This document shows, piece after piece, positions 9,203-52,400 of a stretch of DNA of 64,000 nucleotides. The notes under the pieces were generated by a model. The model was not told the DNA's origin. It did no database searches and saw nothing but the letters and a program-made list of their open reading frames with translations. Origin of the DNA: an uncultured Lachnospiraceae bacterium (lineage in GTDB: Bacteria; Bacillota; Clostridia; Lachnospirales; Lachnospiraceae); the NCBI GenBank assembly GCA_902779395.1, contig CACZBK010000003.1:91025-155024 (forward strand), in the 5' to 3' direction. Each line of letters opens with the position of its first letter. Position 1 is the stretch's first letter. The position numbers and the translations under genes are program-made.

Positions 9203-9250
9203 ATAAGAGGAGCATTATAAGCAAAAAACGCTTTTAATGCTCTTATTTTT
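9203..9250 (+). terminator. Terminator of the nrdD operon
   Basis: An imperfect stem of about 12 bp (ATAAGAG plus CATTA on the left, TAATGCTCTTAT on the right, with a 3-base bulge) encloses an A-rich loop and ends in TTTTT. Confidence 0.7.
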
Positions 9251-9304: not shown

Positions 9305-10312
9305 ATGGCTGGAAGATTTTCGTGGCTTGACAGGAGTGAGGGGGAGTCTGTCGCTGCATACGACAAAAGGATAAATGAACTGGAGGCATTCCATAGCGGA
9401 TATGCCTTTTTGTCGTATGAGAATTATTGCCCGGAATTTGCCGCTTTTGCAGTATATACCGTCTGGAATGATGAATTTAACAAAAAGCTTACGGATCCCT
9501 TGCCTGAAGGCGGGTTCATGATACATTGCGATGAAAAACGCGCTATTGAGATGTGTACATCGGGGCATGGCTTTCCTGTATTCGTAAAGCTGCTGTCAAG
9601 GCTTGGAAGACTTTATGTGGAAAGCTATGTAATGGCTGATAAGGAAGTCCTTTTTGATCTGTATTTTAACGGATGTGAAGTAAAGAAGCCCGAGGGTCTC
9701 GTGTTTATGGAGACAGAGCTGCCAAAGTCTGTTTCGCTGTTAAGAACAGAAGATGACACGCTCAGAAGCCAGAGCACGGGCAGCTGTGGCCGCAGTTCAT
9801 ATATAAGCGGCAGCTTTTTGCGGGGAAGCTTCTTAAGAGGCAGTTACATAAAAGGAAGTTTCATAAAAGGCAGCTACCTGCGCAGCAGCTATCTGCGCGG
9901 AAGCTATTCAAAAGGCAGTTTTTTGGCAGGCTTTTATACATCGGGGCTGTCAGGCAGTTATCTTACATGGTTCTTTGGCGGGAGCAGTTACTTAAAACAG
10001 CTTTTCGGGGCGGGCAGTTATCGTAATGTGATATTTTCGGGCGGTAGTTTCCGGGCCGGAAGTTTCATTCGGGGCAGTTATATGAGCGGAAGTTATACGG
10101 GCAGGTATTTTCTGACCGGCAGTTTTTACAGCGGAAGCTATCATTCAGGAAGTTTTATTTACGGAGGCTTCTCGGATGTTATGACTGTTTCTTATAAGCC
10201 GGGCAAAGACGGAGAAGCTGCATGGGAACATGAGCCGAACAGAAACAGACAGGAGGGGGCTGTTGTACGGCGGCTTATAGAAGAACTGGGATACGGACTG
10301 GATCTTATCTGA
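9305..10312 (+). CDS. GSY/GSF aromatic pentapeptide-repeat protein, function unknown
   Basis: A 335-aa protein in three parts. Residues 1-163 are globular with no signal peptide. Residues 164-291 consist of about 25 five-residue units of the form G-S-F/Y-x-x (e.g. GSFLRGSFLRGSYIKGSF) with one three-residue break near GLS. Residues 292-335 are a charged tail. The five-residue period with a large central side chain is the geometry of pentapeptide-repeat beta-helices, but here the centre is Phe/Tyr rather than Leu/Phe and the preceding residue is Ser rather than Asn/Asp. ATG 9305 was chosen (GAAAGG upstream); an in-frame TTG at 9281 falls inside the hairpin. It is coupled to the DUF6734-like gene with one base between them. 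No function is assigned. Confidence 0.8.
   Translation: MAGRFSWLDRSEGESVAAYDKRINELEAFHSGYAFLSYENYCPEFAAFAVYTVWNDEFNKKLTDPLPEGGFMIHCDEKRAIEMCTSGHGFPVFVKLLSRLGRLYVESYVMADKEVLFDLYFNGCEVKKPEGLVFMETELPKSVSLLRTEDDTLRSQSTGSCGRSSYISGSFLRGSFLRGSYIKGSFIKGSYLRSSYLRGSYSKGSFLAGFYTSGLSGSYLTWFFGGSSYLKQLFGAGSYRNVIFSGGSFRAGSFIRGSYMSGSYTGRYFLTGSFYSGSYHSGSFIYGGFSDVMTVSYKPGKDGEAAWEHEPNRNRQEGAVVRRLIEELGYGLDLI
9794..10177 (+). repeat. Coding 15-bp degenerate tandem repeat (GS[FY]xx units)
   Basis: About 25 units of roughly 15 bases, reading GGN-AGY-TWY-NNN-NNN, run through the gene at 9305. Base-level copies differ (ggaagctac, ggcagtttt and so on) while the amino-acid pattern is kept. This points to selection on the protein rather than recent slippage. 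Confidence 0.8.
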
Positions 10313-10313
10313 T

Positions 10314-11156
10314 ATGAACGGCTTTTATTCGTTATGGACAAGGCCTTCGGGAGAAGGTGAGGATAAGGACTTTGCAATGCAGGATTATGAGCTTGCATGT
10401 CTTTTACTGTCGGTGGCTTCTTACGAGCGGTATAACGGCAGGACAAGGCTTTATGCCGATAAAAGAGCCGGCGCTTTTTTTATGGAAAGAGGCCTGGAGG
10501 AGGTTTTTTCCCGGGGGATATGCGAATTTACGGTACCGGATGATATAGATCCGAAGGTGTTCTGGGCGGGAGGCAAGCTGTATGCGCTCAGTCTTGAGGA
10601 GATGCCTTCCGTTATGGTGGATACGGATCTGATAATCTGGAAGAGCCTGGGCAGGCAGCTTAAGGATAAATCAGTAGCGGTGATACACAGAGAGGAATTA
10701 AATCCTGCGATATATCCCGATCCCGGAAGTTTTCGGATGAAACAGGGATATGCATTCCCGGGCTCCTGGGATTTTAACATAAGGCCGGCAAATACTGCGA
10801 TGCTTTATATAAAAGATAATGATTTCCGGGACTGTTATGTGGAAGAAGCTGTAAGGTTTATGCGCAGTATCGAACACACGGAGGATAATCTCTGCCCCAT
10901 GGTATTTGCGGAACAGAGGATACTTCCGATGTGCGCGGCACAGAGAGGCTTAAGCATCTATTCCTTCTGTGACAGGCTGGAAGGATTGAGGGAACAGGAT
11001 ATGTTCACGCATCTGTGGGGGCATAAGAATGTTTTTAAATTCAACATGGATGAAAGAAGAAGCTTCATCCGGCGCTGCCTGTTAAGGCTTGAGAGGGATT
11101 TTCCGCAGATGTACAAAAAAGCGGCAGAGGTTGCCGAGCTTAAAGCTTATGCATAA
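10314..11156 (+). CDS. DUF6734-like, probable glycosyltransferase-fold protein
   Basis: A 280-aa soluble protein. From memory it resembles DUF6734 proteins: an early LWTRP segment, then GGKLYALSLEEMPSVMVDTDLI around residues 86-107 with a DTD at 103-105, a later NTAMLYIKDNDFRDCYVEEA segment, and a late FTHLWGHKN. A DxD after a predicted beta strand is typical of GT-A nucleotide-sugar transferases, so a glycosyltransferase fold is plausible but unproven. It starts one base after the repeat-protein stop, so the two are translated together. The repeat protein may be its substrate; that is inference. Confidence 0.6.
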   Translation: MNGFYSLWTRPSGEGEDKDFAMQDYELACLLLSVASYERYNGRTRLYADKRAGAFFMERGLEEVFSRGICEFTVPDDIDPKVFWAGGKLYALSLEEMPSVMVDTDLIIWKSLGRQLKDKSVAVIHREELNPAIYPDPGSFRMKQGYAFPGSWDFNIRPANTAMLYIKDNDFRDCYVEEAVRFMRSIEHTEDNLCPMVFAEQRILPMCAAQRGLSIYSFCDRLEGLREQDMFTHLWGHKNVFKFNMDERRSFIRRCLLRLERDFPQMYKKAAEVAELKAYA

Positions 11157-11184: not shown

Positions 11185-12153
11185 GTGTTAAAAGTTGATA
11201 AACTTTATAAGGCCTACGGTGGCCGTGAGATAGTGAATAACATATCCTTCGAAGCCGTAAAAGGTAAGATATACGGGTTTCTGGGACCTAACGGTGTGGG
11301 AAAATCCACTACGATGAACATGATCAGCGGATATCTTGCACCCGGTGGCGGAGAGATACTCATTAATGATATCTCAATGATCAAAAATCCCGTAAAGGCG
11401 AAGAGACACATCGGTTATCTCCCGGAAGTGCCTCCGCTTTATCCGGATATGACTGTATCGGAATATCTGGGCTTTGCGGCGGAACTTAAGGGCTTAAGCG
11501 GAAAGCAGAAGCGCATGGAGGTTGAAAGGGTAGAGGAGCTGCTGGCGCTGGGCTATGTAAAGCAGCACCTGATAAAGCAGATATCAAAGGGCTATAAACA
11601 AAGGGTAGGGCTGGCACAGGCTATAACCGGGAATCCGGAACTTATCATACTTGATGAGCCTTCATCTGGTCTGGATCCCAGACAGATAGTGGAGATGCGT
11701 GAACTGATACGGCGTCTTAAGGATGAACATACAGTGATCTTTTCCACACATATACTGGGCGAAGTGAGCAGCCTTTGCGATCATGTTATGATCCTATCCG
11801 GAGGCAGGCTGGTAGCAGATGCCACGCCGGAGGATCTGGTAAGGGATTATAATGAAAAACAGAGGCTTACCCTTGTGCTGAAGGGGTCCGCATCTGCAGC
11901 CGAACAGGCAATGGACCGTATCGAGGATATAGAGAGCCACAAGGTGTGCAAGGAAGAAACAGATTCATGTACGATAGAAGTTACTGCAAAAAAAGGGAAG
12001 GATGTCAGGGAAGTGTTATCTAAAGCCTGTATAGGCGCGGGCTATACCATACTTGAAATGACGGGGCGGCAGGTTACCCTGGAGGAGGTTTATCTTGAAT
12101 TGACCTTCATACGGCCCATGAAGGAGGAAACAGAAGATGTGGGCAGTATTTAA
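11185..12153 (+). CDS. ABC transporter ATP-binding protein (GldA-like)
   Basis: A 322-aa ATPase with Walker A GPNGVGKST at residues 34-42, signature ISKGYKQRVG, Walker B LIILDEPSSGLDP and switch His in STHILGEV. The start is GTG 11185, with TGAGGT eight bases upstream. A long C-terminal domain (from about residue 215) is usual for exporter-type subunits. Its last 17 bases overlap the next gene, a GldF/GldG-type membrane protein, so the pair forms a Gld-like ABC system. It lies 28 bases after the DUF6734-like gene and may share its transcript. Confidence 0.9.
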   Translation: MLKVDKLYKAYGGREIVNNISFEAVKGKIYGFLGPNGVGKSTTMNMISGYLAPGGGEILINDISMIKNPVKAKRHIGYLPEVPPLYPDMTVSEYLGFAAELKGLSGKQKRMEVERVEELLALGYVKQHLIKQISKGYKQRVGLAQAITGNPELIILDEPSSGLDPRQIVEMRELIRRLKDEHTVIFSTHILGEVSSLCDHVMILSGGRLVADATPEDLVRDYNEKQRLTLVLKGSASAAEQAMDRIEDIESHKVCKEETDSCTIEVTAKKGKDVREVLSKACIGAGYTILEMTGRQVTLEEVYLELTFIRPMKEETEDVGSI

Positions 12154-14251
12154 AAAGGAGTGGCTGGGCAACTTCAGAAATCTCAGCGGATGGTTGTTCC
12201 TTTCCGTTACCCTGTTTTTTATGGGATGGTATTTCAGGTATTACGGACTTACTAACGGTATGCCCTATATCTCATATGTACTGGATGCAGTGCTTTTTAT
12301 CTTCCTCTTTACCATGCCGCTTATAACGATGAGGAGTTTTGCGGAGGAGAAGAGGCACAGAACTGACCAGCTTCTTTTCACATCACCTGTAAAACTTTGG
12401 CAGATAGTTCTTGGTAAATATCTGGCGGCTGTATCGGTGTTTTTACCGGTATTCCCCGTGATGATCATATATCCTCTTATAATGAGGATATACGGGGATG
12501 TTCCTTTTAATGAAAATGTTCTGGCAGTGGTAGGCTTCTTCTTTTTCGGCCTTGCAGCGCTGGGCATAGGTGTGTTCATTTCATCTCTTACGGAAAACCA
12601 GATGATCGCTGCAGTCCTTAGCTTCTTTGTGCTGCTGTTAAGTGCAATGATCAAGGCTATAAGCGCAATGATCAGTGTCAAGGGGAATGCGCTTACGACA
12701 CTGCTTTCTGTATTTGATCTGACGGGGCCTTTTGACAACAGCCTGTACGGAGTTTTATACTGGCCGGATTATGTATATTATCTGTCGATAGCATTCCTTA
12801 CTCTTTTCTATACCGAGCAGATACTTACGGCAAGGCGTTTTTCAGTGCGCACACACGGTATCCCCTGGGCACTGGTAAATACTTTAAAGATCGTTCTGGT
12901 CACAGGTGTGATCATAGGTATAAACATCGGTGTAAGGGCGCTGCCATATGAGAAAAAGAGTATGGATCTTACCTATAACGGTATACGTTCGATAACGGAT
13001 GAGAGCCGTTCGGCGCTGGCAGCTCTTGACCGGCCGGTACAGATATACATTCTTTCTTCTGATGATGATAAGGATGAGACGCTTGAGGCAACCCTTCAGA
13101 GGATGGAAGAAGCCAGCGGTTATGTTAAAGTGGATCATATCGATCCGAAGGAACAGCCTTACTTCTATCTGGATTATACGGATATAGAGCCGCTTGCAAA
13201 CAGTATGATAGTGACATCCGGAACAAAGAGCCGGGTGGTCAATTATTATGACTGCTATCAGGTGAGCTATGATTATGCATATGATGTCAGTTCCGGAGGC
13301 TATGTGACCACTGATTATCATGTGTCGGGATATGACGGAGAGGGCCGTATCATGAGCGCCATACGCTACGTTATAAACGATCATGTTCCTAAGATATACT
13401 GTATCAATGGGCATGACGAGTTTGAACCCGACGAGGAGCTGGTGAGCAGGATAAGCAATGCCGGCTTTGATATGGAATCAGTGAACCTGCTTTTGCATGA
13501 AGACATACCTGATGACGGGGATATTATTTTTATACTGGCGCCTGTAAAAGATATGAATAATGATGATATCGCCAAGATAAGACGGTTTATGGAAAAAGGC
13601 AAGAGTGCGGTACTCATCACCGGATATACCGAAGGAGCGGAGCTTGATAATTTCTACAGCCTGCTTTCAGATTTTGGAATGGAAGTACTTCCGGGAGTTG
13701 TGAGTGAGACGGATCCTGCTTATTATAACGGCACCGCCGAATTCCTTCTTCCTGAGATAATTGAGGGTGAGCTTACCAGAGCCGTTTATACCACGGGCCG
13801 TACAAGATTCATATATATGCCGTTTTCAAGGGGCATTAGGCTTAAAGAAACTGCGGATGTAAGCGGTTCGACTTTCCTGCGTACTACGGAAGGGGCTTAT
13901 GTGAAGGTCGGGCGTGATATAGAGAAAGGTCCCTTTTCGCTGGGAATCTATACGGAACGTTACGGAGAGGGCGGAGTCAGCCGGGTCATTACCTTTACTA
14001 CTGATTACTTTCTGTATAAAGATATAAACATGGCTGTTAACGGAAGCAATTATGAGCTTTTTATGCGCAGCCTGTTAAAGATATCCGAAACGGAAGAAGA
14101 AGCTGATGTGCCGGTCAAGCCTTACAGCTACGATCCTATCTTGGTTGGGCCCACGTCAAGAGGCGTTCTGTCATTCATACTGACAGGGGTGCTCCCGGGA
14201 GCGGTATTGCTTGTGGGGATAGGAATATGGTATTACAGACGCAGAAACTGA
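12137..14251 (+). CDS. Fused ABC permease and GldG-like auxiliary domain
   Basis: A 704-aa membrane protein. Residues 1 to about 265 form six or seven helices of an ABC-2 permease like GldF (RSFAEEKRHRTDQLLFTSPV is the cytoplasmic loop after helix 2). Residues about 285-640 are a large soluble domain resembling GldG/ABC_transp_aux (YCINGHDEFEP; GDIIFILAPVKDMNNDD), and one helix with a basic tail ends the protein. In Bacteroidetes the two parts are separate gliding proteins; fused forms occur in Clostridia and are not linked to gliding there. AAGGAGG precedes ATG 12137. The substrate is unknown; export of an envelope component is a guess. Confidence 0.85.
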   Translation: MWAVFKKEWLGNFRNLSGWLFLSVTLFFMGWYFRYYGLTNGMPYISYVLDAVLFIFLFTMPLITMRSFAEEKRHRTDQLLFTSPVKLWQIVLGKYLAAVSVFLPVFPVMIIYPLIMRIYGDVPFNENVLAVVGFFFFGLAALGIGVFISSLTENQMIAAVLSFFVLLLSAMIKAISAMISVKGNALTTLLSVFDLTGPFDNSLYGVLYWPDYVYYLSIAFLTLFYTEQILTARRFSVRTHGIPWALVNTLKIVLVTGVIIGINIGVRALPYEKKSMDLTYNGIRSITDESRSALAALDRPVQIYILSSDDDKDETLEATLQRMEEASGYVKVDHIDPKEQPYFYLDYTDIEPLANSMIVTSGTKSRVVNYYDCYQVSYDYAYDVSSGGYVTTDYHVSGYDGEGRIMSAIRYVINDHVPKIYCINGHDEFEPDEELVSRISNAGFDMESVNLLLHEDIPDDGDIIFILAPVKDMNNDDIAKIRRFMEKGKSAVLITGYTEGAELDNFYSLLSDFGMEVLPGVVSETDPAYYNGTAEFLLPEIIEGELTRAVYTTGRTRFIYMPFSRGIRLKETADVSGSTFLRTTEGAYVKVGRDIEKGPFSLGIYTERYGEGGVSRVITFTTDYFLYKDINMAVNGSNYELFMRSLLKISETEEEADVPVKPYSYDPILVGPTSRGVLSFILTGVLPGAVLLVGIGIWYYRRRN

Positions 14252-49457: not shown

Positions 49458-52400
49458 ATGAAACGATTAAAAAACATCATCAGCTGGATCCTGATCCTTA
49501 CGTTATGCTGTGGAGAATTTACCCCGCAGTATATGGTGTATGCGGCAGGAGAAGAGATCGATACACAGTTTGATGACGAAACATCAGGCGGTGATACTTT
49601 AGTATCTGCTGATACTGCTGTATCCGAAGATGAGGCTGCAACTGACGAGGATGCAGTGTCGGAAGATGAGACAAAGGAAGAGGCAGTTTCAGAAGATGAA
49701 ACTAAAGAGGATGCGGTTTCGGAGGATGCTGCTGAAGAAGCTGCTGCTTCCGATGAGGAAGATGAAAACGGTATTGAACAGGGTGAAGTATACGATGATG
49801 GCCGTATAAGTGATGATGTGGATGCAGGTGAAGAAGAGATCGTATCCGCAGATTCTTATGTTACGGTGAGCTTCACCATGAATGTAGATGAAAAAGAAGC
49901 AAGAAAAGTTACGGCTTCTGTCAATAAACTGAGGCAGGATAATAAGAAAAACAACCTGACTTACGATTACGGCCTTGAGGAAAAGGCTATGAGACGTGCT
50001 GCAGAGATCGCGGTCTACTATTCGGCAGATGTACGCCCCGATGGTCTGGCTTCTTCATCCATATTGGGAGAGAATGTCAGAAATAAGGCCAGAAGAGAGA
50101 TGATCATCCGTGAAGGAAATGATGCAGCTGCAGCAGCTGCTCTGTTCAGGGGTATATCCGCTAACGAACTGATCAATTCCGAATACGGATACATGGCAGT
50201 AGGGCATGTAAAATTCCAGGGTAAGCATTACTGGGTATTGGAGCTTACCGCTGCTGCTACCAACCTCAATGAGACCAAGGAGAAGGTAGGCGATGAAGTA
50301 TTCAGGATGGATGTACTTGAAAAATTCATATCTAAAGCAGGTGTGGATCCCAGCCTGAAGGAAGATACCAAGATAAAGGTAGACAAGGACAAAGCCAAAG
50401 ATCTGCCTACATTTTCAGGGTATATAGTCAGTAAAGAGCACAAGCCTGATAATGAGCAGCTTAAGGTGGTAACATCAGCCGCATCCTGGACGATAAATAA
50501 GGATTACGGAACCATTAAGAACAATAAGCTCACTGCCACAGCTGCAGAAGGAACCGAATTCAAGATAAGCGCTAAGGTAGATCATGCTAAGAAGGAGTAC
50601 AGTTTCAATTATAACGTAAGGGTAATAGTTCATGTAAAGGATATTAAGATCCACATGGATAAAGATGCTGTTATCAGCGGAAATGCCGTTGTAATAGGTC
50701 TGGACAGGACCGTAGGAGCTACAGTGGAAGTACTTCCTGCTGATGCAGATGACAAGACTTTTGAATTTAAGTCTGATAATGAAAAAATAGTACGTGTGAA
50801 AAAGCCGGCCAAAGAAGGTGACGGTGCGGTTTATACCCTTGAAGGTGCGGGAGCAGGCGATACAAAAGTATGGGCTATCCCTAATGATGATTATAATAAG
50901 AACGTAAAAGCATATCAGGATGTGAAGGTCGACGGCGAGGATGAGATGTGCGAGGTTTATGCTACTCCCGGCGACTGCATTATAACAAAAGATACCAGGG
51001 TAAGACTTACCTGCGGTACTATAGGAGCAGAGATCTATTATCTGATATATTCATATCAGGTCAGCCGTGATAAAGATGGTTACGAGACCTGGATATACAG
51101 TGCGGAAGACGAAAAGAAGAGAGATGCAGTTTATAAACCCGGAGAAGACTGGGCGGATAACAAATATTTTATAAAATATACGAACCCCATTACCGTACCG
51201 GGTAACTGTTTTATCCGTACCGTTGCCGTGAAGCAGGCGTTTGATAAAGACGGGAAAGCGGTATACAGAGTGAGTGATCATCTTGACTGGCTGTATCGGC
51301 TGGATAAAAATGACTGGGGTGATGTTATCGTACTTGACAGACAGGAATACGAAACTCCCGATGATCTTCCTAAAGGACTCTGGGTAGCCGAAGCGTCCAT
51401 GCCTGAGCTTTCTTATACAGGTAAAGCGCAGAAGCCTGACAGCTTCAGAGTATACTATAACAAAAAGAGACTTTATAACAAAAAAGATTATACGATCAAG
51501 TACAGTAATAATGTAAATGCGACCACAGAAACTTCAAAGGCTAATGCAAGCTTTACTTTTAAGGGAAATATTGATGCTAAGCTGGATAAGCAGTTTTCCA
51601 TCGGAAGAGCCGACATTTCCATAGCGAAGCTGTCAAAAGCCGGCGCTGTATATACCGGTTCACCTGTTACCGTTAAGCTGAAGGTGACCATGGGCGGAAA
51701 GACTCTTAAGGAAAATGTGGATTATACCATAGATACACTGGGAGCCGAGCTTAAGGATATCGGAGAATATACCATCAATATCTGCGGTAAGGGAAATTAT
51801 GACGGAGTACTTTCTCACAAGTTTAAGATAGCCGGAAATAAGAAAGAGCTTCCGGCAGCAGAGAAGCTCATCAATTTTAAAAAGGACGTTACCATCAGAC
51901 TTGATGTGACAGAGTATGAATATATGCCTGAAGGCTGTTATCCTACGGTAAGCGTCAATACCAAAACAGGAGCTGTACTTAGTCAGGGTGTTGATTATAT
52001 CGTGACTTATAAGAACGCAGAGAAAGCAGGTAAGGCTACTGTAGTTGTAACAGGGCTTGAGAGCGCAGGATATAAAGGCAGCGCATCCAAGAAGTACACT
52101 ATCAATAAAGTGGATATATCCAGGGGATCTGTAATAGTTTCGCCCGATATAATGTCTGTTTACGAAAAAGGCGGAGCTAAGATGGATATGAGCGTGATCA
52201 GAAAACTTGGCAAGGAAGAGAACATAGAGTTAAGAGAGGGTATAGATTATACGGTCAAGTATAAGAATAATAAGAAAGTAGCCAGAGAAAACGGCAAGAA
52301 GGGACCTTATTTTACCGTTGAAGGAAAAGGCGGATATAAGGGGAAACTTGGGCCTTATTATTTCAATATCCTGCCTATGACAATTGGAAATCTTGATGGA

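Follow-up and report, generated by a model that had tools for sequence, protein, structure and literature searches.

The window (i.e. the whole 64,000-nucleotide stretch of Lachnospiraceae DNA analysed here) carries on its forward strand two adjacent genes, A and B. Gene A (9305..10312, +) opens with an ATG that has GAAAGG, by eye resembling a ribosome-binding site, a short way before it, and encodes a putative carrier protein of 335 aa. The protein is composed of a globular head (approximately residues 1–132; 9305..9700, +), a low-complexity linker of GS[F/Y]xx units (approximately residues 158–290; 9776..10174, +) and a C-terminal tag, GYGLDLI (residues 329–335; 10289..10309, +), and its C-terminus reads RRLIEELGYGLDLI. 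Gene B (10314..11156, +) encodes a glycosyltransferase-like protein of 280 aa with a DxD motif, D103-T104-D105 (10620..10628, +). The stop codon of A occupies 10310–10312 and the ATG of B begins at 10314, leaving a gap of one base. This layout agrees with a first-pass annotation of the same DNA, which had divided A into a globular head, repeated GS[F/Y] units and a charged tail, and had described a one-base spacing, a 280-aa protein B with the D-T-D motif and resemblance to Pfam DUF6734 (found here above the curated cut-off), and ABC genes 28 bases further on (B ends at 11156 and the ABC ORF starts at 11185).

Between a dUTPase-like gene and A lies an inverted repeat of 18 nt, 83% complementary, followed by a T-run (9205..9247, +). 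The hairpin was absent from the terminator-scan listing; together with its T-run it suggests that A and B begin a transcription unit, possibly one of their own. Elsewhere in the window, a 704-aa protein (12137–14251) fuses ABC2 membrane regions to an ABC_transp_aux domain, and a 30-bp unit is repeated in tandem 2.5 times at 49653–49728.

Distribution and gene neighbourhood

Of 35 genomes of the Lachnospiraceae genus, 32 contain a homologue of A and 33 a homologue of B. Among the genus genomes with a completeness of 90% or more and a contamination of no more than 5%, both genes are present in 23/23; completeness is 72% and 81% for the two genomes that have neither gene. In a wider draw from the family (299 genomes, 298 genera) A was matched in 16 genomes. 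Two of these are members of the genus; the matches in the remaining 14 were weak, began no earlier than residue 113 and covered mainly the repeat. B-like proteins occurred in 10 of these 299 genomes. Records recovered by the B scan included Lachnospiraceae NK4A179, XPB1003, AB2028 and NC2008 along with metagenome-assembled genomes, many of them from the rumen or omasum of goat, sheep, deer and buffalo. No B relatives were found in viral contigs or phages, and plasmids yielded a single distant DUF6734 protein (22.5% identity) from Hymenobacter, with no small gene just before it in the gene table, which is incomplete for plasmids.

The two genes were adjacent in all 29 genus contigs that contain both (window included), in line with the coupling proposed by the first-pass annotation; three further genus contigs end before B. 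The common gene order in the genus is nrdD-like, nrdG-like, dUTPase-like, A, B, ABC ATPase, ABC permease and gltX. A role for the ABC genes in exporting or acting on the product had also been suggested, and this was not supported: they are absent beside the pair in L062, L063, L064, L066 and L111, where a gltX-like gene lies directly 3′ of B. Given these five genus pairs, the ABC transporter was judged unlikely to belong to the system. Outside the genus, gene families were shared inside close groups (rabbit-gut Clostridia; L135 with L164), ABC-ATPase-cluster genes occurred near a few pairs, and at L156 some 30 bases separate the carrier ORF from the end of an ABC-transporter-like ORF upstream of it. 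BLAST clustering (E 1e-8) of the ORFs that lie within 5.5 kb and encode 70 aa or more revealed no gene family, protease and transporter families included, that recurs at the pair from one carrier type to another.

The two proteins

The repeat of A comprises 16 strict GS[F/Y] units, or 19 when counted as [GSA]S[F/Y], fewer than the approximately 25 first annotated. Over 10,000 shuffles of A residues 151–300 the mean was 1.4 units and the maximum 7, so that the repeat is far above chance. The 18 spacings between units were 5 residues in 13 cases, 10 in four and 13 in one. In the structure model, ten-residue pLDDT means were 88–96 across residues 11–130 and fell thereafter, which shortens the confidently folded head from the 163 aa once proposed to ∼130 aa, whereas residues 136–310 and 312–335 had pLDDT below 50 (30–42 in the repeat) and no strands. 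The head found no match among PDB folds (best Foldseek E 0.16), and window A matched no Pfam or NCBIfam model at E up to 1, nor any Pfam model when the limit was raised to 10.

Unit spacing varies between orthologues. Five was the commonest spacing in 16 of 27 genus orthologues, and in two others the most frequent value was 10 or was shared equally by 5 and 10; elsewhere the dominant spacing was 7 (L070–L072), 6 (L068), 13 then 26 (L067) or 14 (L076), and L064, L066 and L075 were mixed. The linkers of L064 and L066 also contain runs of 8 and 10 asparagines. Judging from these sequences, what is kept across the genus is the composition of the linker (Gly, Ser and an aromatic residue) and not a five-residue geometry. 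The right-handed beta-helix that had been proposed, presenting a regular ladder of hydroxyls, is therefore not supported as a general fold, given the strandless, low-confidence model and the variable period, although a model at pLDDT below 50 could still miss a helix in A. Three of the 29 aligned genus carriers match Pentapeptide_2 (PF01469; best E 3.3e-37) and three of the 29 match LbR_Ice_bind, a beta-roll model (best E 9.6e-9), so some linkers may be ordered; A itself differs from Pentapeptide_2 proteins in lacking both the Pfam match and a predicted beta-helix.

Protein B matched DUF6734 (PF20508) with 39.1 bits against a curated cut-off of 27, and all 30 aligned genus B proteins matched the same model at E up to 10 (best 2.4e-19). 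No NCBIfam model was matched, and no paper on the function of DUF6734 was found in the open-licence literature searched. A model of B built from 30 sequences had a mean pLDDT of 93.7 and a pTM of 0.91. Among the Foldseek matches listed, the best were human glycogenin-2, UGGT, glycogenin-1 and YeGT, with LARGE1 lower (probability 1.00, best E 1.4e-6); we take these targets to be of GT-A fold. This supports the annotation of B as glycosyltransferase-like, although on the model the superposition on known folds is loose, with TM scores by query of 0.33–0.48 and rmsd of 5.8 to 18 Å over the 50 matches listed. D103 and D105 were invariant in 68/68 full-length B proteins (61 tagged and 7 untagged; the fragments L065 and L149 were omitted), and N160, E200, Q201 and H233 were also invariant in the 61 tagged proteins. 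The DxD of B would probably bind a metal. Glycogenin, a eukaryotic GT8 enzyme and the best-scoring solved fold for B among the matches listed, likewise has a DxD motif.

Membership of GT8 was not recovered at the sequence level. Glyco_transf_8 was not among the 11 families matched by any of the 30 B proteins at E up to 10, and hhalign comparison of B (30 or 68 sequences) with 14 GT8 proteins from relatives gave probabilities of 0.7–0.85%, against 0.9–1.0% for reversed controls. The weak alignments do place D-x-D, N and Q in the same order, but they are non-significant and the reversed controls did equally well. A search of the B profile against the sequences of solved structures returned two antibody chains only (best E 0.029). 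GT8 membership by sequence was therefore dropped, and B is described here as a glycosyltransferase-like protein whose fold resembles that of GT8, without being assigned to that family.

A C-terminal tag on carriers of several types

Collapsing 100 B loci gave 69 distinct B proteins, the window not counted, and in 61 of these an ORF ending, or nearly ending, in a GYG[LI]xxI tag lies directly upstream. (In L134, L135 and L136 the regular expression matched a preceding GSG, and the tail GYGL(E/N/K)(L/I)I is present in the sequence.) The eight without a tag are seven more distant DUF6734 members (L147 and L148, both Verrucomicrobiota, and L159, L160, L161, L162 and L163) together with L149, where only a 115-aa piece of B remains at the end of the contig. 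A tag within the last 20 residues occurred in 0 of 6,891 other ORFs of the same loci, a comparison set of mechanical six-frame ORFs of at least 30 aa, many of them spurious.

With the window included, 62 tags were available. G, Y, G and the last I were each present in 62/62; position 4 was L in 49 and I in 13, position 5 was D in 35, E in 9, N in 8, H in 7 and other residues in 3, and position 6 was L in 56. The same positions were invariant in the 29 tags from outside the genus. The tag forms the very C-terminus in 49 of the 62 proteins, and between 1 and 12 further residues follow it in the remainder. The tag tyrosine was never replaced by phenylalanine, whereas the linkers contain Tyr and Phe at 660:716. 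No interpretable co-variation was seen between tag position 5 (His or acid) and the columns of B. Judged by this conservation, the most informative element of A is its C-terminal GYGLDLI tail, which the first-pass annotation had overlooked.

The survey began from B, and it was within the 35 genomes of the genus that tags distant from B were sought. At the DNA level, a loosely defined tag pattern matched the window genome once, at A, with one match also in the backward control. A tighter pattern gave 34 matches in 32 of the 35 genomes (backward control 0), including a single match in the window genome, again at A. The genomes with no match to the tighter pattern were G015, which has the tag GYGLGLI, and G021 and G022, which have neither A nor B. 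All 34 matches fell at known A-B loci or contig fragments of such loci, no additional tagged protein was found elsewhere in the 35 genomes, and only G013 had more than one match, owing to a local duplication. At that locus (L053, 1889–2094) ∼60 bp of the 3′ end of the carrier gene, including tag and stop, is tandemly duplicated; four copies lie between A and B, one of them altered (GYGPDLI), and the last abuts the start of B.

Outside the genus, the ORF just 5′ of B often has another head with the same C-terminal motif. The genus head was found in L118 (E 4e-32) and L127 (E 5e-30). Carriers of the Selenomonadaceae type (L134, L135, L136, L138, L140 and L164; E 5e-12 to 5e-6, hhalign probability 92.7%) have it as well, preceded by two other regions; all these E-values refer to the 61 carriers searched. 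A short head of GxLxxWL type, assigned by eye and for five carriers also by a BLAST cluster, precedes GSF units or SG repeats in L137, L139, L141, L142, L143 and L158. The rabbit-gut Clostridia carriers have a further small head with (SG)n, and L155, L156 and L165 are each the single example of a type; the carriers of L130 and L146 run off their contigs, which places their heads outside this typing. Carrier length spans 42 to about 470 aa, with short examples of 42 aa (L131, Cellulosilyticum ruminicola), 62 aa (L144) and 92 aa (L157), and the linkers are of GSF/GSY, SGSGSG, GSQ or TSYL type or hardly present at all. For ten carriers of other types, no Pfam model scored above its cut-off.

In a tree of B (47 rows, the genus thinned to 11) four tagged groups contain no untagged row, L161–L163 form long branches, the short or unique carriers are scattered over several places, and the genus head appears in two separate groups. 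Tree placement and carrier typing together indicate that heads and linkers vary while tag and enzyme remain together.

Several proteins related to carriers or to B were observed in other settings. A search with the Selenomonadaceae-type carriers through the family of G708 (17 genomes) returned two matches, one of them the carrier already known; the second (L190, 3712–4725, in G751) is a carrier-related, untagged protein of GxLxxWL type behind genes that by eye are AAA-ATPase-like, and this head may thus have a wider life beyond carriers. The untagged B relatives L159 (G208) and L160 (G100) both stand behind one gene family, RCC1-repeat-like by eye, and would represent an untagged branch with another partner. 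L163 (G640) is a Pfam-typical DUF6734 protein (204 bits) following a 723-aa protein that, by eye, may be a tail-fibre-like structural protein.

Candidate functions of the pair

We propose, with a probability only a little above one half (roughly 0.55), that A and B form a two-gene protein-glycosylation module in which B docks on the tag and glycosylates the tail tyrosine and/or linker serines. B would be a cytoplasmic glycosyltransferase of GT-A fold, as its model suggests, probably dependent on DxD and a metal. A would be its dedicated carrier, made up of a head, a flexible Gly/Ser-rich linker and the GYG[LI]xxI tag. By docking on this tag, B would transfer a sugar from a nucleotide-sugar onto the tag Tyr, the linker Ser or both; the purpose could be a glycan-primed scaffold, a primer for storage polysaccharide or a sugar label directed by the head. 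What is observed is that the two genes are neighbours, that the tag is conserved, that the model of B resembles known folds and that B has the DxD motif. The persistence of tag and enzyme across varying heads and linkers speaks for the module, whereas L159, a B relative of similar score (245.6 bits) with no tagged neighbour, speaks against it.

The acceptor could be sought in either part of the carrier. It is possible, as a tentative reading, that the linker serines are the acceptor, that B acts as a serial O-glycosyltransferase of Gly-Ser repeats and that the tag merely docks it. Serine is common to the GSF/GSY, GSQ, TSYL and SGSGSG linkers, the residue after linker GS is Y in 248 cases, F in 169, G in 103, S in 24 and Q in 16, and weak compositional Pfam matches, far below cut-off, link L133 to Serglycin and L127 to Nucleoporin_FG; however, the minimal carriers are poor in serine (4 per whole peptide in L131 and 5 in L144), and G/S stretches also make ordinary flexible linkers. 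The first-pass reading, in which the GSF/GSY units fold as a beta-helix of pentapeptide repeats and B modifies its hydroxyl ladder, appears unlikely: the period of 5 in the window and in many orthologues and the few Pentapeptide_2 and LbR_Ice_bind matches agree with it, but the model is strandless at pLDDT below 50 and some orthologues are spaced at 7, 6, 13 or 14. On the sequence evidence, the conserved signal is more likely to be the GYG[LI]xxI tag, with linker Ser and/or tag Tyr as the acceptor, than a regular hydroxyl ladder. We consider it doubtful that the pair is a split glycogenin, in which B glycosylates the tag Tyr and may extend the chain on a carrier that serves as protein primer for an intracellular glucan. 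The tyrosine found in every tag, set against linkers with nearly equal Tyr and Phe, and the top rank of glycogenins, which glucosylate Tyr, among the solved folds listed for B would fit such a role; against it, sequence comparison did not show GT8 homology for B, and an invariant Tyr could serve binding. The glycogen synthase domain PF08323 occurs in 35/35 genus genomes, but it is also found in 12 of 14 control genomes and in both genus genomes with neither A nor B, so that it says little and the glycogen link is only permissive.

Other explanations place the tag in a different pathway. The tag could instead be a degron or localisation signal; that it serves such another partner, with adjacency to B reflecting an indirect pathway link, seems improbable, since in the survey that began from B the tag stands beside B across unrelated carriers and lineages and no other family was seen to recur there from one carrier type to another. 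Least probable in our view is a RiPP-like system in which the C-terminal heptapeptide is a core peptide, glycosylated by B, then cleaved and exported. A short conserved C-terminus beside a single tailoring-type enzyme, carriers as small as 42 aa, the ABC genes found after the pair in most genus loci and the ABC-transporter-like ORF before the carrier of L156 are consistent with this, but five genus pairs have no ABC genes beside them, no protease or transporter was seen to recur across carrier types in the ORF clustering, some carriers are as long as about 470 aa, such a core peptide would hardly vary, and up to 12 residues follow some tags.

The proposed glycosylation module can be compared with several known systems. 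Serine-rich-repeat adhesins are secreted proteins whose repetitive, serine-containing acceptor region is modified by dedicated glycosyltransferases. The A-B pair would share with them a serine-containing acceptor repeat and a dedicated enzyme, but inspection of A shows no signal peptide, and we know of no GYG[LI]xxI-like C-terminal tag in these adhesins. Glycogenin primes glucan on protein (PMC11046441), and a protein Tyr is likewise a candidate acceptor in A; unlike glycogenin, which modifies its own chain, the enzyme B and the candidate acceptor A are encoded by separate genes, and the sequence similarity of B to GT8 is non-significant. PDR1/MDR1 of organelle-dividing rings are glycogenin-like proteins of GT8 type thought to make polyglucan filaments; they are eukaryotic, and no tag-carrier partner is described for them in the available part of the source (PMC6424925). 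According to the available part of a 2024 review, genomes of glycogen-accumulating bacteria failed to reveal glycogenin homologues, and in Agrobacterium glycogen synthase is able to produce the primer that it needs (PMC11046441). This argues against the need for a protein primer but makes the present pair a candidate worth testing. That the pair is a split, tag-addressed bacterial counterpart of glycogenin, with B placing the first sugar on the tag Tyr of unrelated carriers and the tag making a protein a glycan-primed cytoplasmic scaffold, is a speculative and rather unlikely extension of the module.

A glycosyltransferase with a dedicated protein acceptor is an already known kind of system. 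As far as the open-licence literature was searched, by title and abstract start, no description was found of a tagged-carrier/glycosyltransferase pair, and a shared C-terminal tag that addresses unrelated carriers to one enzyme family is, within that search, undescribed. If the tag works on another protein, it would offer a small tool for site-directed glycosylation. A seven-residue tag on proteins with unrelated heads and linkers, each encoded beside the same glycosyltransferase-like gene, looks like a so far undescribed substrate-addressing rule for protein modification in gut bacteria, and the A-B pair is a concrete candidate for asking whether some bacteria prime glycans on protein.
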